Assembly (NCBI GenBank): GCA_016196565.1
Contig: JACPXK010000109.1
Span: forward strand, 1 to 9,954
Direction of reading: 5' to 3'
DNA: 9,954 nucleotides
Origin: Candidatus Omnitrophota bacterium
GTDB lineage: Bacteria; Omnitrophota; Omnitrophia; Omnitrophales; Aquincolibacteriaceae
The notes under the pieces are model-generated. The model was not told the origin of the DNA. It ran no database searches and saw only the letters and a list, made by a program, of their open reading frames with translations. Positions 2 through 9,952 of this stretch are shown here, piece after piece; position 1 is the stretch's first letter, and each line of letters starts with the position of its first letter. Position numbers and translations under genes: made by a program.

Positions 2-562
2 CGTTATCACCGCCGCGCGATCAATCAATACGCTGAAATTCTTGCCAAGGACTGGACTCCTCAATCTCTTGGCTTTTGGATCGGTGTCAGAGTTCCCATG
101 AAAGAGTCCGATCGAGTGGAACATTTTAAAAAGAATATGTTTTCAATTTATCAGCAAGTCCAGAACGGAAGGCATAAAACACTTTTCTATCCCGCTGCCA
201 GCCAAGATACTTTGAGAGTATTGCTGGCTTACGATGCTTCCGAGATAACCGCGGTGGATCTTAAGGATCCTCGTCTGGAAAGGGAATTAGAGAGAATTAA
301 TATTCGATTCAAATTGAGAACTTATCGCGAGGATAATTTTCAGGTTAAAGAATTTAGATTTTGGCTGGCCGGGAAGCGGCGCCTGATTCGTTATTACGTC
401 GGCGATGCTACGCAAAAGAATTTTCTCAATGGAAATTCGTACGATGTGATTCATGTGTTCCGTCCGGACGATTCATTTTCATACACCCTCACAAAAGAAG
501 TTTATGATGCGGTGAATGACGGCGGTTTTGTTTCTTATGATGAAGAGCCCGTCACTATATCA
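2..562 (+). other. Rossmann / SAM-methyltransferase-like domain (N-terminally cut)
   Basis: Residues 1-187. The order of elements matches a class I methyltransferase fold. A first strand and loop reads LFYPAASQD (residues 61-69), where the family has a glycine-rich loop. A helix follows, then strand 2 ending in the acidic residue of ITAVDL (D86). Next comes YYVGDAT (residues 131-137, D135), like the motif before the adenine pocket, then YDVIHVF (147-153) as strand 4, and a late DAVNDGGFVSYDE that resembles the 'L.pGG.l' turn. The glycine-rich loop is replaced by Pro-Ala-Ala-Ser, so cofactor binding may be weakened or lost. The domain start lies upstream of the window. The substrate cannot be inferred. 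An alternative is another Rossmann nucleotide-binding fold that is not a methyltransferase. Confidence 0.55.
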
Positions 563-3500
563 AGTGAAGTGGCGTCGGACGATATGCCCGGAACCGCCGT
601 AAGCTTGGTCGTTCATGGCCGGTTTAATCCGGACGAAGTCCACACGATTTATCAAATTCAAAAAACCCCGGCGGGTTTGGCCCGTTCTGAATATAGAAAA
701 CCGCTTAAAAGGTCTACCCAATTAGCCTTGATCGGAGGCGTGGAAACACTTGCGCCTTTCGTGGAAGATCTTGCGCGGTATGGTTTTGTTTCCGCCGGAG
801 GACTCATCGAGACTATCATTCCTTTCGGATTCAATGCGGGAAATTCCAGCCTGCTTCAGGAAGATATCAAGTTAGTTTGGGAAGCGGAAGGCCCGGTATT
901 TTTACGCAAGACCGGCAGAGGAAAATGGGTCCCTATTACCACGATCCCAAGTCCGGGCGCTTTTATGTACGCCTTGGGTGCCGGGTATCAAAATGACAAA
1001 ATCCAAAAAATTATGCGTTATCGCTCACGGGAAAATAGTTTCTCCGCCGCAAAAATTGTCGAAGAGGCCGAAGCGGAAGTCCGCGCAGACAATGTTTATA
1101 CTTTACAAACAAAAAGTGTGAGAAGGCTGTTTCAGCAATTAAAAAAATATGCAGTGATTGTAGACAGGCAATTCACCAAAAGTGGTGTGGATTTTCGAGG
1201 TTTGCAAGGGGTGGTGAATTGGCAAAATCGGGCAATCACCATACAAAATATTCTTTATCTCGGGGCCATGCTTGAGGCTGGCGCCTTGAGGCCGGGAGGC
1301 ATTCACCCTGAAAAATATCGCCAGGCAGTCGAGCGGCTGGTAAGAATTCTCGAAGCCCCCAGCATGCCGGTACACTCTTCTTTTTGGTCCCATGAAGAGG
1401 CCCAGACCGTAGTTTATTTGAAAAGGGCACAGACATTTACTCTGCCCAATAAGGAAAAAATCAACACCAACCGCATTGTGGGACAGCATACCTGGAAATC
1501 CCTGCGGTCTCAGCTGGAAAAAGATAATCGAGTGACTAAAGTCCAGCTTGAAGCCAAACAAAAAAGTCCGCAAGACCGTCCGCGCGTTGTCCGTCCTCCC
1601 GCCACAGAAGATGTTTTACGAATCATTCGCGAAGCAGAACAGCTTAATTTTATTCCAGAGAATTTGGAAACCGAATTACCCATGCTTTTAGGGTCGCCTG
1701 AAATTGCTGAAGCGCTGAGACAAAGAAAAAGAAACGGAAAAATTACCAACCTTATTCTTCCCGCCACGACCAGTGACGGAAATCCTCCCGTGATTGGAAG
1801 TGAATGGGCAAGGGCGCTTGAAAGAGGAACGGGCATTGCTTTGCATGAATGGGTGACGCATTTGTGGGCCAATCAATTTTCAGCCCATCCCAATCCGGAT
1901 GTCAGGGAAGAAGCCAAGCAGCTTCTTCAAAGCGAAAGAGAAAGGACCGGCGCAAAAGTAAGAACGACTTCGTTAGACCCGGATTTTGTCCGTTCTTTAA
2001 GCGCGCTCAAAGGCCGTAAACAAATTTCCGTTTTTCAAGGCCCGCTTGCCCAAAAAGTCCAGATCCCCAGCCGCCAGCCGGGCCTCGCCGAGCCGGATGA
2101 TGCTTACCGGATCTCTCCGGCGCTCGTCGGTTTTGTCTTAAAAATGCAGGAAATTCTTTATAAGCATGGTGTGGCGCCGGTCCTGACCAGTGATATTGAC
2201 GGAAGTTTGAAAATTTCAGGCTCTAAGCTGTTAGGAAAACTTGAAGCTCAGGAAATCGCGGACATATTGCGCGCCTTTGCACCGATGGTTCTTTTGACGG
2301 GCGGCGCCGCCGACGTCGTCCAAAATTTGACCACCAAAGTCATTCAAGGAAAATTAAAACCCAAAGAATATGCTTTGATGCAGCGCCTGCTTCTTCAGGC
2401 TGTGGCCGGCTCTATGACTTTGGTGTTTAACCCCGATCGCGCCAAGGAACAATACGCTTATGAAATGATGGCAGGCGTTAATTTGCAGGACGAATTAACG
2501 CCGCAGCAACTGGCTAAGGTGCGGGAAATTTTTGATGAGCTGGCGGAAAAATATAAAGATGAATTAAAGAAAAGTAATCACAAGTATTCCAACTTTAAGG
2601 GGATTGATGGTAAAGGGCTTAACGCGCAGGGATTTTTCGGGGATGTCTACGATTACCGCATTGCCGGCATCACTTTTGCCGCGCTGGGTAAAGAAGCCGC
2701 CTCTGAAGTCGCCAAGCTTTACGGCGCAGAACCCGGCAGCAAAGAAAGAATGAAAAAATACCGGGATTTTCTTAAAAAGCGGTTTGCTCAGGAAAAAATT
2801 CCTCTCGATTTGAGAATGGGCAGTGAACATCAAATCGACGCCACTTTAAAAGGCTGGAACAAAGGCCAAGCCCTGAGATTTCTTTCAGGACTCACCGGAA
2901 TTGTCACAGCGGCCATGCTTTTTGGCGGCGATAATATTGTCTCCAATGAGGATGGAACTGCCGGCAATGATACTCCCGGCGCTCAAGAAGCCGCTTTGTC
3001 CATTAATCTGAACGCCATCTTGATGAAAATTCTCGAAGGCAGAATCGTCATTACGGCAGCCAATAAGGGCGATGACGGGGGAATGCTGCCTTATCTGCGT
3101 TTATACCGTCTTTTTTATGAACAGCTTGTGCCGGCCGCTAAAAAAGATTTTCTCAAACGTTTAATGAACGGAGTTAAAAGAGAAAAAGAATCGCAGAAAA
3201 AACGCTCGCTCGCCTGGGCCCGGAAACAACTTTTAAATTTCAAGAAAGTTTCTTCTGCCGAAATCACGTCAGCGCTTCATTATATTGAAAACCTCATTCT
3301 TAAAGGGGATGACGAAGACGCTTTTCTGGCTTACCGGGCCTTAAAGAGTTTATCGCTCATGAAATTGACGTCTAGCGCCATCCATGATGTTGAGAAACAA
3401 TTCCGCAATTATGCCAGAAGAATGGGGAAGGAAGAATATCAGGAATATGCAAAAAAATATCAGGATTCACCTCCTGCCCTGAGTCTGGAAACAAATCGTA

Positions 3501-6500
3501 CTGCCGGCACCGCTTTTATCCCGACGGAAAATATTCCCGACTTGGACCCCGAGGAAGCGCCTCAGCTTCAAGAAATCGGACGGCAAGCCCTGCAGAATAC
3601 AAAAGTGGGCTATGTTATTTTATTTGATGATGAAACGGTGGACGAGAAGGCCCTTGCCGCGCAAATGAATCATATCCGCAGGCTTCAGCAAAATTCAAAA
3701 AACGGTCTTATTCCGGTCACGCTTGTCGCCAATTTCAAAAAGCACATTCAACCAGACGGGACCGTGGAAGGGGCTTATCATCATCAAAGACTGATCGAAG
3801 TTTTAAGAAAAAACCGGTTTTTCGGTCTCGATCCCCAACAAATTGAAATCGAATTTCAGGGTATGTTTCACACCATGGACGCCGAACATCGCCAGCCTTA
3901 TGTTTTTAGGGCCGCGGGACGGCATTTTCATACTCCCGGTACATTGAACGGTTTTCTCACGCCCGCTGTCCATCAAGTTTATGAAAAATGGACAGAGCAG
4001 GGAGTGGATTATGTGATTGTGTCAGATATGAAAGCAGCGCTGCCTTCGGCAAAGCAAATCGAAGTTCTCGATCAAACCATGGTCGGACGATTGATGCATG
4101 AAGAAAAAGAAATGGTGACTTTAGTGACCGGTAAAAGGGCGGAAAGTTCCGGCCGTGCGGCACTTTATTATCACAGAACCGTAAAACGCTATGAATTAAT
4201 TCAAGAAAGTACTCTCACGGAACCGGGGAATGCCCATTTGGTTGATTTTGGAAGGTCCGTGGTTTCTCTTCAAGCCGTTTTAGGCCGTCTTTCGCTTTCT
4301 TCAAAAACGAAAACAAAAGTCAGTCAAAGCCAGCGGCAGCAGAAAGTGCTTCAGCTGTCTCAAAAACTACGCCGCTTGCCTTATGTGCAGCGCCAAACCA
4401 TACGTGAAAGCAAAATCCGTAGTGTTCAAATTGACACCTTTGACCGTCCGTTTTCTTTACTGACCAAAGAATTGGACACGGATTTTCTGGACATTCGTTC
4501 TTTCACGGCGCTTCGTTCCAGCTCAGAAATGCGCCGCGGCCGGCAGGGATTTCTCGAAAATAATCAGATTAAACAAGTTGTCGAGCAAATTAGGAAGCGA
4601 AACAAAACTCGGGCATATGCTAATTTTTTTATTCGGTTTTTATGGGATTCGATAGATGCGTTATTGCAGTGGAAATTGTCCCGATGGATCCTTGCTCGTC
4701 TTAAGCAACTTAGGCAAAAGCCTTATCCAGATTTGAAATGGAAAAATTCAATCGAGGGTGATTTTTCCCAGGCCGAGATCGATACGATTAAAAGAAGAGG
4801 GGATTTATTGGCCTCTGTCTATTCTAAACTGGGCCCCGAAGCCAAAAAAGTGCTGCTCATCCCATCCTTTTTGCTGGTTTTTATGGGAATCAAACCGATT
4901 TATATCCGCATCCCAGAGATCGGAGATCCTGATCCTAAGATTTTGTTAGAAGAGCTTCAGAAAAATCTTGGAATGGGAACCGGAATGAACCTTCTTTTTC
5001 AGGAAGATAATTCGAATAGGGATGTTTTTGACCCCGAGCAAATTATTTCAGCCTTGTTAACAAGGATGGATTTTTTGGAAGAAACAGGAGTCTTATATCC
5101 GGGAGATAATTTTTCGGGATCTATCGATAGGGTAGTTACGCAGATTCGCACTATCAGAGACATGATAGAACAAAAAAGGCGGATGGATGAGCTTGGGAGC
5201 TCCTTAGTAAGCACTTTTTTCCAAATAGCACAGGGTAATTCCGCTATGCAAGACATTATTTTTGGAGTTTTGTTGAAATATCCTGAAGCAGCCATTCGTG
5301 CCGGGGTAGGCAGGCAGAATTATGTTCCCGGAAATTATGCTTATCAGCTGACGCCCTATCCCAGAATTCAACTGGTGGTGGAACAGGATGATCAAGGAAG
5401 AATTAGCGAAGGCTCTTTAGAATATTTGGCGCGCATGGTGGATACGCTGGATTACGCTTATTCACGCATTCGCCGTGAAAGTGATTTTTCAAGCATTGCC
5501 GGCGAAATTCATTTGCCGGAACGTGCTTTGAAGGCGCCTCCTCAAGATATTTTTTCTCGCACACCATTAGAGCAATTGACCGAACGAGAAATTGAAAAAG
5601 CCGATGAAGGTGAACTTAGAAAATGGATAAGCCTTATCAATGCGCATTCAGACGACATCGCTATTGTTGATCAGGGACAGAATATTTTACGCCGGCTTGA
5701 TGAAGGAGATCGAACGCAAGCGGAGTTTGGAGCGTGGGTTAATCGCACATTAGAAGGGATGCCTTCACGCGGACCGGCTGATGTTTATTCTTTGCGCAAG
5801 CCCCTAGAAGCGGCCCGTATTTTTGTAAGCCGTTATGTTTATACGCTGCCTTCTTCGGCTTTAAGAGAAGAGCAGCATGAAGGCGTTCGACGAATACTCG
5901 AAGAGGTCGATCAATGGCTTCCCGAATACCGTGATCTTATCAAACGTTACCACGCCGTTGAGGAGCCTGATGAAGCCTTAGTCAAAAATATTAAAACTTT
6001 GACCGGAAAGATAGCCGCTCAAGGAAGGACCGGAAGACTACCCTATGGCTATAGGCACGCTGTTCCCGAAGCTCTTGGGAAAACGGTTCTTATAATCCAT
6101 GGTTATCTTGCTGAAGGTCCAGACGGAGGCTACATCAGGATCAAAAATAAAAATAGCTTAAATAAATTAATTTTTCAAATTGAAGCGGTACGGCTTTTGC
6201 TCAATGCAAACATGATTAACCGCATTGACGAGCGAATCTTTTTTGACGGAAATGAATTTGATTTAGAAGCAATTCAAAGGGCCGTTTTGGTCCGGTCTGA
6301 ATTGAGAGCGCAACTAAGCGTTTCTGAAACAGATCAAAAAATGGCGCGTTCCGTTATTTGGTTTTTTCTCAGAAGAGGAGTCTATTTTAGCGTAGACATG
6401 GAAGACGTTTATCAGGAAATTTATTTAGCATTTGCCAATGCTCGGAGTCAAGGGCAGGTCCCGGAAGAGAAAACGTTGTGGTTTGAGGGAGTCAAAGCAG

Positions 6501-9500
6501 TATCTAGCTTGGTCAACAACCAGACAAAGTATAAACGTCTCGTTCGGAGAATCAAATTAAATCCTAAAATTATAACGCCGGTTGGAGATCAAAATTTTCC
6601 CGCAAGGCTTCAGAACCTTATGGATCGTCAGGCATGGAATAACAAAACCCTTGGGGAGGCTGTAGGGGTAGATCAGAATACTGTATCAAATTGGCGAAAT
6701 GGAATTCAATTTCCTCGGCCATTTCAAATGAAGAAACTGGCCAAGGTTTTAAAGGTTGACACGAGTTTTCTTATGGTGGGTGTTTCTCGTGAGGAACTCT
6801 TAGGCGTGCGCATTGATGATTTTGAAAGCTTGGAGTATAAGAAAATTTTCGGACTCAAGATCAAGCTTTTAAGGTATGAAAAAGGATTATCGTTGAGGGA
6901 GTTAGCTAATAAAGTTGGTGTTAACAAGGCCGCTGCCATTGACTGGGAGAATGGAAGGTTTAAGAAATTACCTTATCCTTCCAATATGAAAAAGTTAGCG
7001 GTTTTGCTAGGGACTACGGTGAGTCAGCTCCTTGCGGGAATGACAAAAGATGTTTTGTTAAATCAAAAAGCCGAGGATGAAGAATCACCGGAATTTCGCA
7101 AATGGTTTTCCTTAAAAATCACTGTTTTAAGGTATGAAAGAGGATTGACTCAAGAAGAGCTTGGTTCCAAAGCGGGCCTGAGTTCTTCGTCCATCAACCT
7201 TTTAGAACGCGGAGGTTTTCCAAGGAGAAACCAGTGGTATGTCCCCAATCTCGCTGCCGAATTAAGGACCTCTGTAAGCCAGCTTGTTGCGGGAGAGGCT
7301 GAAGAATCATTAATGCAAGCTGTGCAAAACGCGCCAACGGCAAAAGAGAGAAAAAGATTCGGGTTGAAAATGAAAGTGCTGCGTTTGAAAAAAGGATGGA
7401 GCATGCATCAACTTTCTCGGGAAACAGAAATTGACCGGCGTATCCTTGGATGGCTGGAAAAGGGCAGGCCGACCTTTGGTTACAGTTTTATGAAACGGTT
7501 GGCGAAAAGCCTTGGTGTTTCGATCAGCCGAATTGTTGCCGGCATGCCCGAAAATGATTTAATGAACATGGCATTAGTGTTACCTGGGCAAAACGTGGTG
7601 AGCATGAGCCGTGAATCAAGACGAATGCTGACGCTTAAAGTAAGAGTTTTATGGTATAAAAAAGAATGGAAATTGTCCGATTTAAGCGATGCCATTGGCG
7701 AAGGTAGAATTGTTCATTCTGGAATGACTCCCGGTGTCCATTCTGTCCGTCGCTTTGCTAAACAGCTGAATATTTCTGTCAGCCGGCTGTTGACCGGGAT
7801 GAGCGAAGCAAAGTTGATGGCGGCTTCAGCCAATGAATCTGATCCCGATGCTGCGAAAAAATGGATAGGATTAAAGTTGCAAGTCCTGAGGTATAAAAAA
7901 GGCTGGAGCTTGCACCGGTTATGGCAGGAAACGGGAATAAGTCGCCATGCCCTTGATCGTTTTGAAAAGGGACGTGCTTTGCCGCCAGTCTCGACGGCAA
8001 ATCTTTTGGCCCAAAAATTGGGGTCTTCTAGCGATAGAATTTTTTCAGGCGTCACGTTGTCCATGGCCAGTTCAGAAATGCGGGGGACAGAGATTACTCC
8101 TTCCATCATTGATGAAAGAGCCGAGCAATTGACGCAGATAATGCTGGCTCCGATGACAGAGGACAGCGCCATTTTCGAAATTGAAAATGCCCCGATTCAC
8201 GCATTTATTTTTTCCAATGTTAAATTAATGGAACCAGCCTTCACAAGATTTGTATCAGGGCTTGCCGGCACGGCCCGGCAGGCTGCGGATTTTTATTCCG
8301 CCTATTCAGACAATGAGCTTAATGCATCTGAAAGAAAACTTAGGGAAGACATGCTCCGTCTTGGAATTTTGATCGAAGATCAAGGAAAATATCGTGGGAA
8401 CGAAAATCATTCTTTTCTGGCCATAGTTCCCCGTAAGGATGTGTCAGCAGCGACTGAAGAACTTGCTCATACCGTCTTTGTTTCTTATCCGGATTATGCC
8501 GCCAAAGTTCGCGAGCTTTGGAAAAGCTTGGATGCAAAACTCAGAGATGAATTTGTAAAATTTTTGGGAGAAGACGGGGTTTATAGCGGCGTTTCGGAAA
8601 GCCCAGAAAATTCGGCAGGCTACGAATTTTTAATTGCGGAATTCGCAGGGAAAGTAAGGGACCCCCAAAATAGATTTTATGGATCCCGGTCTCGCGATCT
8701 TTCGCGGGAAGAGAGATTTAATGAAGTGCGAGGCCGCCTGCGTGAGCTCGAATCGGAAATCCATCTTGGAGAAGTCATAAGTGTTCCCCGCTCCGAAATG
8801 CGAAACTTAGAAGATGAAATTCAAAATGGCCTTTCTGGTCTTAATGATGACCAAACAGACGTTGTAAGTGCTCATATTAATATGCTGGATAAGCTTTTGA
8901 TTAAAGCCGACGGAGTATTTTTAAGATCTCATGATAAATTAACTAAGAGAGTGATCGAAGCGCTTAAGAATAATCTTAATCATGAATATAGGGATATTGC
9001 AGAAGCAAGCACAATGACTATGGCTTATCTTTTTAATCAGCTCAACGGGAGGTTTATTCTATTAGATCCTGGATTTTTTAAGGGAGTGATTGAAGCGCTT
9101 CAAAAGAATTTAAATTCTGAAAACGAGCATATATTTCGGGCGACAACGATCGCGTTCCAAGCCCTTTTTCAGCATCTTGACGAAGAATTCATTCGAACTT
9201 ATCCCGCACTTTTTGAGACAATCGTTAAAACATTCAAAGATAAGCTCAAAGATACAAATGCAGAAACAAAAAGAGCAAGCGCTCTTCCTTTAGGAGCTCT
9301 TTTTGGCCGTATGGGTAAGCAATTTGTTTTAGCGCATGCTGATCTTTTTGAAGAAGTCCTAAAGGCCCTCAAAGATAATCTTAATCATGAAAATACAGAC
9401 ACGCTCAGAGCAAATATTTCTGCACTCGAGGCACTTCTGCCCCAGATCGGCGAAAAATTTATTTTAAAGCGGGAGGAACTTTTTGAGCAAATTATAGCAG

Positions 9501-9952
9501 CGGTCCAGAGCAATCTTGATCATGGAAGAAGTATCGTTGACGGATCTGCGAGAAAAGAAGCCGCACAAGCACTCGCAGCCCTTTTTGAATACTTGCCGGA
9601 AGATTTTGTTCAGGCCCGGCTGGAAATTTTTAAACAATTGATTGTGTTGGCTGCGCGCAACCTTAGTTATGCTAGCCAGTATGTCAGGAAAGCCAATGCT
9701 GATGCTTTGACCGCTTTTGCTGACCGCTTCCCAGGAATTTTTCTAACGGAAGATTATTTAAAAACCTTGTTGAATATTTGGTATGACGATTGGGATGACA
9801 CCTGGTATTTGGTCACTAAAGAGAAAGCTCAAATCATAGAATTATTTGCTGCAAAAACAGGTGAAAGTGCTATGGCCTCGGCCGCCAAAGCTATTGCCAA
9901 AGCACTGGGGGCTACCAACTCTCCAGTTTCTACGACTCGCGAAATGGCTCAA
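2..9952 (+). CDS. Giant multidomain protein, partial at both ends
   Basis: One reading frame runs through the entire window without a stop, giving 3317 complete codons. At equal base use the chance of this is roughly 10^-69 (back-of-envelope, (61/64)^3317), so it is real coding sequence. I followed the frame through all lines and found no frameshift. Neither the true start nor the stop is inside the window, so no ribosome binding site can be judged. Recognisable modules, in order, are methyltransferase-like, HAD phosphatase/phosphomutase-like, UDP-sugar pyrophosphorylase-like, sigma-region-2-like, six XRE helix-turn-helix repeats, a degenerate zinc-peptidase-like module and an ARM/HEAT solenoid. 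Short SEMR motifs separate several of them. No cysteine codon occurs. No convincing signal peptide or transmembrane helix is seen, but the N-terminus is missing. Giant ORFs of this mosaic kind are known from Omnitrophota; that placement is inference. The overall function is unknown. Confidence 0.96.
563..2149 (+). other. Unrecognised segment of the giant protein (residues 188-716)
   Basis: I do not recognise a family here. The first part (188-350) has alternating beta-like stretches, for example VSLVVHGRFNP and LALIGGVETLAPFVEDLARYG. The rest is mostly helical and rich in Lys, Glu, Arg and Gln. A Pro/Arg-rich stretch around residues 520-532 looks like a flexible linker. A His-Glu-x3-His pattern sits at residues 615-620 (LHEWVTH) and is followed by a His-Pro-Asn-Pro. 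It resembles a metal-site helix but is one residue longer than the classical HExxH motif. The segment contains an ARSEYR variant of the recurring SEMR linker motif near its beginning. Confidence 0.5.
680..697 (+). other. SEMR-like linker motif variant (ARSEYR)
   Basis: Residues 227-232 read Ala-Arg-Ser-Glu-Tyr-Arg. They sit about 40 residues after the methyltransferase-like domain, in a Pro/Lys-rich context that looks like a linker. The site matches the SEMR motifs further along except Tyr for Met. Taken alone this could be coincidence. Confidence 0.35.
2150..2998 (+). other. HAD-superfamily (type IIB, phosphomannomutase-like) domain
   Basis: Residues 717-999 carry all four HAD motifs in the correct order. 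Motif I is TSDIDGS, with the nucleophile D731 and acid D733. Motif II is VLLTGG, with T766. Motif III is KGWNKGQAL, with lysine K954. Motif IV is FGGDN...GND, with D977 and D990. The roughly 185 residues between motifs II and III would hold a C2-type cap. HAD enzymes of this class hydrolyse or transfer phosphate on sugar phosphates through an aspartyl-phosphate and Mg2+. The 'KGW(D/N)K' and 'GG.ND' signatures resemble eukaryotic-type phosphomannomutase and sugar-phosphate phosphatases more than generic Cof proteins. The key residues are intact, so activity is plausible, unlike several other modules in this chain. The substrate is not determined. A sugar-nucleotide pyrophosphorylase-like module follows in the same polypeptide. 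Confidence 0.82.
2999..3601 (+). other. Charged helical linker region (residues 1000-1200)
   Basis: This stretch connects the HAD and pyrophosphorylase-like modules. It is predicted to be largely helical, with long runs of Lys/Arg/Glu around residues 1050-1075 and a Pro-rich, acidic spacer at about 1155-1190. I recognise no catalytic motif. Its first 40 residues may complete the HAD fold. Confidence 0.45.
3602..4300 (+). other. Diverged UDP-sugar pyrophosphorylase (UDPGP)-like domain
   Basis: Residues 1201-1433 follow the layout of the UTP-glucose-1-phosphate uridylyltransferase family. A beta-strand and helix start is followed by TPGTLNGFLTP (1311-1319), in the place of the 'PpGhGd.y.aL' sugar/nucleotide loop. 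Then comes QGVDYVIVSDMKAAL (from about 1334), in the place of 'G.kYvfvsn.DNLga'. VTGKRAESSGRAALYY (around 1378-1390) aligns with 'KT..ekGG.l....g'. Finally NAHLVDFGRSVVSLQAV resembles 'FNTNNLWV.L'. Known members make UDP-sugars from a sugar-1-phosphate and UTP. The N-terminal uridine-binding loop and the Asn of the 'DN' pair are not conserved, so the domain is probably inactive or has a changed substrate. The call rests on pattern memory, not an alignment. Confidence 0.5.
4301..4516 (+). other. Basic linker before first SEMR motif
   Basis: Residues 1434-1505 are rich in Ser, Lys, Gln and Arg, with stretches such as SSKTKTKVSQSQRQQK and KLRRLPYVQRQ. They contain no recognisable domain and lead directly into the SSSEMR motif. 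The composition suggests an exposed, flexible or protease-accessible connector. Confidence 0.5.
4514..4534 (+). other. Recurring linker motif, copy 1 (RSSSEMR)
   Basis: Residues 1505-1511. This site falls exactly where the recognisable left half of the protein ends and a different, unrecognised segment begins. The codons are TCA GAA ATG CGC. The same tetrapeptide Ser-Glu-Met-Arg occurs at residues 2691-2694 and 2931-2934. It may be a processing site or a trace of module fusion; neither is shown. Confidence 0.6.
4535..6289 (+). other. Unrecognised segment between SEMR motif and sigma-like module (residues 1512-2096)
   Basis: I recognise no family. A hydrophobic stretch at residues 1617-1633 (VLLIPSFLLVFMGIKPI) is too short and too interrupted by Pro and Gly for a confident membrane helix; a buried strand/helix is likelier. 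The part around 1690-1760 is helical (TQIRTIRDMIEQKRRMDEL). A compact beta-like stretch near 1790 reads YPRIQLVVEQDDQGRI. Acid/base-rich helices follow (1830-2010). A small globular part near 2035-2095 contains TVLIIHGYL and RIFFDGNEFDLEAI. Aromatic and hydrophobic spacing is normal for folded protein, so this is not simple low-complexity filler. Confidence 0.5.
6290..6307 (+). other. SEMR-like linker motif variant (RSELR)
   Basis: Residues 2097-2102 read Val-Arg-Ser-Glu-Leu-Arg. They sit just before the sigma-region-2-like helical module. The site differs from the three exact SEMR copies only by Leu for Met. It could be part of a helix by chance. Confidence 0.3.
6323..6520 (+). other. Possible sigma-70 region-2-like helical module
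   Basis: Residues 2108-2173. The stretch FSVDMEDVYQEIYLAFANAR (D2132, E2134, D2135, Q2138, E2139) closely resembles the core-binding helix 'D.eDl.QEvflrlw.a' of sigma-70 family region 2.1-2.2. It is preceded by a basic helix with paired arginines and followed by a helix with aromatic and hydrophobic spacing (LWFEGVKAVSSLVNN), like region 2.3-2.4. The aromatic/basic promoter-melting residues are not clearly retained. The module directly precedes the XRE repeat array, an order that recalls a sigma factor followed by helix-turn-helix domains. It may equally be an unrelated helical bundle. Confidence 0.35.
6596..8062 (+). repeat. Array of six tandem Cro/C1 (XRE-type) helix-turn-helix repeats
   Basis: Residues 2199-2687. 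Units are at nt 6596-6805, 6839-7066, 7094-7318, 7346-7567, 7616-7822 and 7853-8062. The shared pattern is a first helix such as F.LK..vLRY.KG, then [LT]..eLa...G[VIL]....i...E.G as the helix-turn-helix, then a helix such as mk.LA..L, and a tail [VS]S.L..GM....LM. Spacing between equivalent residues of units 2 to 6 is 86, 84, 90 and 79. Family members normally carry one such domain, dimerise and bind operator DNA. Unit 1 (TLGEAVGVDQNTVSNWRNG), unit 2 and unit 3 look canonical. Unit 5 has lost most of the recognition helix. Units share the pattern but differ strongly in DNA sequence, so the duplications are old or fast-evolving. Six fused copies could bind a long DNA tract or serve as a protein scaffold; this is inference. 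Confidence 0.88.
7616..7822 (+). other. Degenerate XRE repeat (unit 5 of the array)
   Basis: The first helix (LTLKVRVLWYKKEWKLSDL) and the C-terminal tail (NISVSRLLTGMSEAKLM) fit the other units. Between them the spacing from the conserved Trp to the last helix Leu is 33 residues, against 39 in unit 6. The turn and recognition helix, with its usual '...E.G' end, are replaced by EGRIVHSGMTPG. The unit probably cannot contact DNA in the usual way but keeps the array's spacing. Confidence 0.6.
8066..8083 (+). other. Recurring linker motif, copy 2 (ASSEMR)
   Basis: Residues 2689-2694, immediately after the last XRE unit. The codons are TCA GAA ATG CGG. The context ASSEMRGTE matches copies 1 and 3 only at the core, which suggests a short conserved protein signal and not a longer DNA duplication. 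Confidence 0.6.
8084..8788 (+). other. Module between two SEMR motifs; possible inactive zinc-peptidase-like fold
   Basis: Residues 2695-2930 are bounded by SEMR motifs on both sides. The core is HSFLAIVPRKDV followed by TEELAHTVFVSYPDYAAKV, then a helix with ELWKSLDAKLRDEFVKFL, and later YEFLIAEFAG. This order resembles small zincin peptidases: a strand, HExxH, a helical spacer and a downstream Glu in an 'nEf.Ay' helix. Here the HExxH position reads E2819-E2820-L-A-H2823, so the first zinc ligand would be Glu in place of His. The downstream acid would be E2880. If the comparison is right the module is a catalytically dead relative. The C-terminal part is a charged helix (REERFNEVRGRLRELESEI) acting as a stalk before the next motif. 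Confidence 0.35.
8786..8803 (+). other. Recurring linker motif, copy 3 (PRSEMR)
   Basis: Residues 2929-2934 read Pro-Arg-Ser-Glu-Met-Arg, directly before the helical repeat array. The codons are TCC GAA ATG CGA. The serine and arginine codons differ from copies 1 and 2, so the peptide is conserved while the DNA is not. Confidence 0.6.
8813..9871 (+). repeat. ARM/HEAT-type alpha-solenoid repeats, 45-residue period
   Basis: A partial first unit is followed by units beginning at nt 8924, 9059, 9194, 9329, 9464, 9611 and 9746. Spacing is exactly 135 nt except the unit at 9464, which is 147 nt long through a four-residue insertion. The consensus is [LR]....LF..vi.AlkdNLnhe......rA...al.aLf..l...F[IV]. 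Each unit has two amphipathic helices with conserved Leu/Phe/Ala positions, a frequent Asn-Leu-Asn turn and a terminal Phe-Ile/Val. Such solenoids bind proteins through their concave face. A 17-base stretch is identical between nt 8970-8986 and 9375-9391, 405 bases (three units) apart, which points to duplication of units. The seventh unit (9746 on) is divergent and Trp-rich (IWYDDWDDTWY), probably a capping repeat. Confidence 0.82.

Follow-up and report, generated by a model that had tools for sequence, protein, structure and literature searches.

A lineage-tuned pentapeptide marks the junctions between modules in giant open reading frames of Omnitrophota

The window analysed here, a stretch of 9,954 nucleotides (contig JACPXK010000109.1) from a Candidatus Omnitrophota bacterium, is spanned by a single stop-free frame (nucleotides 2-9952, forward strand, 3317 codons, both ends open) that is part of a giant open reading frame (ORF). 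In a preliminary description of this stretch it was noticed that the tetrapeptide SEMR recurs at residues 1508, 2691 and 2931, and this is confirmed here in the open frame. We found that SEMR is one form of a wider pentapeptide with the scheme R-[S/A]-E-[M/V/L/I/A]-R. This pentapeptide is present in several Omnitrophota lineages and is kept as a peptide, in frame, while its synonymous codons vary. We have little doubt that this motif is an inter-module punctuation, that is, a peptide mark tuned to each lineage. Judging from sequence, the best reading of its role is that the chain is probably processed at the motif, which would release enzymes from a bacterial polyprotein. In a fuller proposal, giant polyproteins, each a fusion of many unrelated enzymes, would supply several Omnitrophota lineages with part of their metabolism, and a dedicated putative protease would read the lineage-tuned pentapeptide as a cut mark; for this we consider the balance to be even.

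The three SEMR copies of the window stand against a composition-based expectation of 0.025, close to the rough figure of 0.03 given in the preliminary description, and, as also pointed out there, their codons differ at synonymous positions (Ser TCA, TCA and TCC; Arg CGC, CGG and CGA). However, at least one tetrapeptide with an expectation of 0.06 or less was seen three or more times in 35% of 500 shuffles, so that the repeat in the window is not compelling by itself and a wider test was needed. The pattern [AR]SEMR proposed for such a test would have missed two of the three window copies, because the residues that precede them are S, S and R.

One wider test was carried out on long ORFs of related genomes (G, C and L numbers denote genomes, contigs and sampled loci). 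The sample contained 55 ORFs of at least 900 residues (305,757 residues), of which five without R[SAH]ExR were excluded, and the remaining 50 (289,580 residues) held 423 copies of this pattern for 15.1 expected, an approximately 28-fold excess whose density is inflated by the way in which contigs were chosen (see below). Seven scrambled forms of the pattern yielded 11-48 copies each, and in ORFs shorter than 900 residues (188 ORFs, 54,095 residues, from the sampled contigs of G084, G014, G037, G070, G017 and G055) there were 3 copies for 2.5 expected. The median spacing between motifs was 295 residues. A lack of enrichment, which the preliminary description had named as the result that would speak against it, is thus not what the relatives display.

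Counts over whole genomes agree with this picture. The [R]SEMR pattern was counted in 285 Omnitrophota genomes, which are assemblies and in some cases are split into many short contigs, with the reversed pattern as control. While most genomes had 0-3 matches, the ten highest counts (pattern/reversed: G084 179/1, G037 83/3, G070 79/0, G014 47/0, G027 47/1, G006 39/1, G051 35/2, G002 35/0, G061 30/1 and G068 30/0) all belonged to one family of 27 genomes, in which the count per genome ranged from 2 to 179 and the RSEMR codon pattern summed to 735 against 25 for the reversed one. Outside this family, G029 presented 14 matches against none. A looser, phylum-wide pattern had a high background: it exceeded its control in genomes outside the RSEMR family (for example, 454 vs 151 in G055), and many genomes fell under the control count. 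When 84,980 genomes, one collection of species, were searched with a DNA pattern for [AP]RSEMR, five Omnitrophota were found among at least 118 loci, a few of which carried no phylum name. Among the matches listed, three of the Omnitrophota loci lay in frames of 1708, 1798 and 2273 residues with one, three and six SEMR, respectively, the other two in frames of 298 and 310 residues, and the remaining 113 loci had one SEMR per frame, in frames of 7 to 715 residues.

The sampled contigs of G084 illustrate conservation at the peptide level. RSEMR was present there in 82 copies for 0.028 expected. Of 86 occurrences of its DNA pattern, 84 were in sense frame 0, and the nucleotides flanking 89 RSEMR sites showed no conservation. 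The Ser codon of 87 copies was TCC (59), TCT (10), TCA (8), TCG (6) or AGY (4), and the Glu codon GAG (48) or GAA (41). One-step neighbours of RSEMR were RAEMR (15), RSEMP (7), RSENR (5), RSEVR (4) and others in lower numbers, and in none of them was Glu changed. Since Glu is unsubstituted while GAG and GAA alternate, the peptide appears to be maintained, which disfavours one of the three roles offered in the preliminary description, a leftover of the joining of modules; of the other two, a protease site and a recognition tag, the former is the one we favour. The wider scheme was revealed by untargeted counts of 4-mers, and each lineage has its own forms: RSEVR and RSEMR in G014 and G037, RSETR in G070, RAEAR, RSEAR and RAEVR in G055, RAEVR in G017 and RHELR in G005. 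Across 409 sites the motif was preceded by Ala, Ser or Pro and followed by Thr, Ser or Asn, within flanks rich in A, S, P and T.

The motif avoids the modules themselves. In the 50 long ORFs, R[SAH]ExR fell within stretches conserved across genomes only 3 times for 45.9 expected (binomial 1.9e-17; the conserved modules overlap between genome comparisons), whereas the scrambled forms were not depleted there (20 of 171, for about 18.5 expected). Similarly, none of 207 motifs was inside a named domain or a match to a solved structure, for 16.6 expected (29 domains in 17 ORFs, taking only the best stretch per match). The preliminary description had considered that copies scattered within folded domains would count against it, and both comparisons point the other way. 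Order-promoting residues made up 18% of those beside SEMR, compared with an ORF mean of 32.6% (157 sites, 44 ORFs). Thus, as in a polyprotein, a conserved short sequence is found at junctions and outside modules, although some junctions lack it.

Several different enzymes, as identified by PDB or Pfam matches, lie within single ORFs, as is also expected of a polyprotein. In contig C21 of G084, a DHQS/EEVS-like cyclase (DHQ-synthase-like; chain residues 31-399 of 420) has an RSEMR six residues away on both sides. In C58 of G037, RtcA (chain 6-325 of 347) begins directly after RAEVR, with 566 residues from its end to the next motif. C22 of G014 encodes a malic enzyme, which an RSEVR precedes by 38 residues and another follows after 62, and a GalE (chain 7-329 of 332) that keeps its YxxxK, while C21 of the same genome, with 35 motifs, carries a hydroxyacid dehydrogenase, a GlcN6P-deaminase-like protein, PIG-L, PFK and two phosphoglucomutases. 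Finally, an adenylate kinase (Adk) with its P-loop kept is found in C72 of G084, 22 residues after RSEMR and 657 before the next motif. Other searches gave less: NCBIfam had no match at 1e-12 in two G014 pieces, Pfam recognized a single domain in the first ORF of C22 of G014 and, of seven G084 ORFs tried at 1e-4, left four without any match (L258, L249, L269 and L268), and PDB yielded one weak match with part of the former ORF and two with part of C173 of G070. In addition, five G084 contigs of 8-10 kb (C1, C2, C61, C69 and C71) have one open frame over their full or nearly full length; assemblies thus appear to break within giant ORFs, and gene callers would get fragments.

Comparison of the window with its relatives showed where the marks fall. 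Residues 318-3317 had one match in a set of five Omnitrophota genomes, a 6546-residue frame of G005 (E 1.7e-98), and matched 62 of the 285 genomes, several in giant frames; many weaker matches were to the helix-turn-helix (HTH) region, in frames of about 70-300 residues. Judged by homology, the window would thus most likely belong to the Omnitrophota. All features that follow are on the forward strand. Module A (683-4489, residues 228-1496) is homologous to residues 4197-5580 of C6 of G005 (27% identity). The alignment starts at residue 227, adjoining a degenerate motif, RSEYR (683-697, residues 228-232), and in G005 RQELR is just upstream of the start. At its other end, SSEMR (4520-4534), which contains the first SEMR copy (residue 1508, 4523-4534), starts at residue 1507, 10 residues past the module, and in G005 RHELR starts 8 residues past the end of the homologue. 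Module B (4763-5575, residues 1588-1858) is also present in G017, G084 and G055, where it is followed by RSEVR, RSEMR and RSEAR, 4, 7 and 35 residues on, respectively; the window has no motif from there to residue 2098. At that position RSELR (6293-6307, residues 2098-2102) opens module C (6293-8053, residues 2098-2684) and aligns with RAEMR 4220 in C24 of G017, and the sequences upstream are unrelated. RSELR and RSEYR had been overlooked in the preliminary description, and both coincide with alignment starts to the giant ORF of another genome. Several common junctions therefore bear lineage-specific forms of the mark.

Module C consists of an N-terminal part and an array of XRE/Cro HTH domains, and the second SEMR copy (8072-8083, residue 2691) is 14 residues past the last HTH match. 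Module D (8084-8788, residues 2695-2929) is flanked by this copy and by the third one (RSEMR, 8789-8803; SEMR at residue 2931, 8792-8803), and module E (8804-9952, residues 2935-3317) runs past the end of the window. With Pfam and NCBIfam, the domain matches of the window were of the HTH type only (approximately residues 2199-2676), so that the XRE array of the preliminary description stands, while its pyrophosphorylase-like region and its solenoid, the latter corresponding to module E, found no match in Pfam (E 0.01) or NCBIfam (0.1), neither to a pyrophosphorylase nor to a HEAT/solenoid family. The array forms part of one chain (6596-8029), and similar stretches are present in G017, G243 and G108. 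No protein relative of module D was found by a search with words from that stretch. Against 5.8 billion proteins the window matched only itself and the two pieces searched had no match; scans of genomes and of viral contigs for patterns drawn from the whole ORF, and a comparison of phage records with one window piece, were likewise negative. The structure of residues 2601-3100, predicted from the single sequence, had a mean predicted local distance difference test (pLDDT) score of 43.7, too low to be informative.

On these grounds, we propose that the giant ORF would be translated as a polyprotein made up of housekeeping enzymes, many of them complete, that fold independently and are joined by short polar linkers carrying the pentapeptide. 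A putative endopeptidase would recognize the Arg-Ser-Glu-x-Arg linker and cut probably at one of its Arg, and this would free single enzymes or small enzyme groups. Modules that start with signals resembling those of twin-arginine translocation (Tat) would become exportable only once freed. With a loose expression for such signals, the 60 residues after SEMR matched at 15 of 157 sites, two stretches being counted twice, compared with 5.6 at random and 5 before the motif. By eye, about six seem real (L251, L258, L267, L268, C17 of G037 and C173 of G070).

Several observations weigh against processing at the motif. Co-occurrence of a protease with the motif was not found among the four families tried, a search that the preliminary description had suggested: C14 was present in 6 of the 285 genomes and 2 of the 27 of the RSEMR family, C11 in none of the 285, and C25 in none of the 27, the control being silent too. 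S8 was present in 94 of 285 and 7 of 27, and in none of the motif-rich G084, G014, G037 and G070. For many of the named domains the closest motif is over 100 residues away, as exemplified by GalE of G014 (522 before, 150 after), and no motif separates RtcA from the guanylate kinase and the MESH1-like domain that follow it in G037, or two MutS-like neighbours in G084. Alignment ends lay close to motifs slightly, but not significantly, more often than by chance (46 of 468 within 20 residues vs 30.8, standard deviation 8.4), and hydrophobic segments, used as a transmembrane test, were not enriched after SEMR (4 vs 3.9). The leading Arg is absent in two of the three window copies, and some giants are nearly free of R[SAH]ExR (2 in G243, 1 in G108, none in G163 and G127). 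Of these, C2 of G243 (57,722 residues, 2 copies) and C2 of G108 (46,432 unmasked residues, masked bases raising the frame to 70,450; 1 copy), from the same phylum, either are single giant proteins or carry another kind of mark. Finally, the contigs were mostly non-random: C1-C19 of G084 were picked blind, C61 of G084 and the contigs of G005, G017, G055, G108, G127, G163 and G243 were chosen for a match to the window, and the remainder for SEMR matches. This choice inflates the density of the motif and leaves the contrast between inside and outside modules unaffected.

A rival explanation is that the chain stays whole and the motif is an uncleaved linker or docking tag, which binds a scaffold, a chaperone or a partner or acts as a flexible joint of a multi-enzyme megacomplex. 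The placement of the motif fits it equally well, the A, S, P and T-rich flanks are those of flexible linkers, none of the four families provided a protease, and, according to PMC10066038, a giant ORF of Velamenicoccus archaeovorus to which peptides have been mapped is taken as one protein. By argument only, a joint would need a composition and not a fixed pentapeptide, and both the Tat-like starts after the motif and the presence of metabolic enzymes, for example Adk with an intact P-loop and GalE with an intact YxxxK, make more sense if modules are released. We regard the uncleaved linker as rather unlikely, though worth keeping in mind. Chance, which would account for the window repeat in view of the shuffles mentioned above, is scarcely credible given the 28-fold enrichment of the motif family in the long ORFs of relatives, the 735 vs 25 copies in the 27 genomes and the variants at the same module boundaries. 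It is also very improbable that the ATG within RSEMR begins each module as a separate protein: some sequences after SEMR do resemble natural N-termini, but conservation like that of a Shine-Dalgarno sequence is absent upstream, and the commonest forms have no Met (RSEVR in the sampled ORFs of G014 and G037, RAEAR and RSEAR in G055).

A further alternative, which we consider improbable, is that a short mobile DNA element spread in frame through the giant ORFs and left functionless RSEMR copies as its footprint. In its favour, the giant ORFs of G084 and G037 contain an in-frame element of 57 bp with two hairpins and GGA-type loops that is bounded by RSEM[R/P]. In the sampled loci there were 27 profile matches at 26 places (L169 and L249 being the same), all in sense frame 0, although 11 of the 27 were the in-frame seeds of the profile; these places include L251:1110-1181, L262:4426-4554, L263:3169-3240 and L314:2179-2250. 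Compensatory changes on both sides were found in 10 of 10 predicted pairs, and Rfam at gathering scores yielded no match in nine sources, including contigs that carry the element. Other in-frame repeats also adjoin some copies. Such a footprint is difficult to reconcile with the absence of a conserved nucleotide flank at the 89 sites, with a peptide that is kept while its synonymous sites have drifted, and with the same scheme being written with other residues in other lineages (RAEAR, RAEVR, RHELR); moreover, a DNA hairpin spans only a minority of the motif copies. For the 57-bp element, the linker may simply be a place where it can insert safely. Translated repeats similar to repetitive extragenic palindromic (REP) sequences were also seen in frame beside RSEMR in L242, L251, L268 and L306, for example LSPPRNAGEGREGE and IASSPFSLLAMTN..GATRSEMR. 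Chance, an internal start codon and a neutral element footprint were all considered and rejected.

If processing at the pentapeptide is correct, stop codons and intergenic regions would be replaced in these ORFs by punctuation at the protein level, and many "giant proteins" of Omnitrophota would become precursors. A readable boundary mark makes giant ORFs divisible into units, each of which can be annotated, and makes processing testable at named sites. A literature search, with preprints and most subscription papers outside its reach, gave no work pairing Omnitrophota with polyprotein, nor the phrases "bacterial polyprotein" or "prokaryotic polyprotein", and the few string matches for the motif that it returned were apparently unrelated, judging by their titles.

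Among known systems, viral polyproteins are single chains cut by a virus-encoded protease at specific short border sequences. The ORFs described here resemble them in having one chain with short specific sequences at module borders, and differ in that no protease module was recognized in those scanned and in that the modules are cellular housekeeping enzymes and not a replication cassette. Rickettsia palindromic elements are in-frame hairpin DNA repeats inside ORFs and resemble the 57-bp element that is next to some RSEMR copies, whereas the pentapeptide is conserved as protein and occurs mostly without that element. A parallel in design is offered by the RBCS polyprotein of Euglena and other euglenid plastid polyproteins, which, according to PMC4938576, have decapeptide linkers and a linker protease described as unidentified. 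In both cases several mature proteins are encoded per ORF with a short conserved linker peptide between them. However, the Euglena system is eukaryotic, with tandem copies of one protein and a linker of 10 residues that is lost in the plastid, the processing being visible on blots, while the putative Omnitrophota one is bacterial and shows neither tandem copies of the same protein nor a decapeptide linker but many different enzymes and a 5-residue motif. Within the phylum, PMC11573180 places Omnitrophota among those rich in huge proteins, with some of the longest ORFs reported, and its discussion has one sentence, concerning all organisms, according to which some huge proteins could be cleaved into smaller functional ones, the motifs recognized being unknown. 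PMC10066038, as far as its accessible text goes, describes giant ORFs with few recognizable domains in the Velamenicoccia, including V. archaeovorus, and treats them as single proteins (coat, adhesion, predation) of open role, without using the word "polyprotein". The ORFs studied here share with those giants the phylum, the great length and the scarcity of recognizable domains, and differ from that account in that they are read as probable polyproteins.

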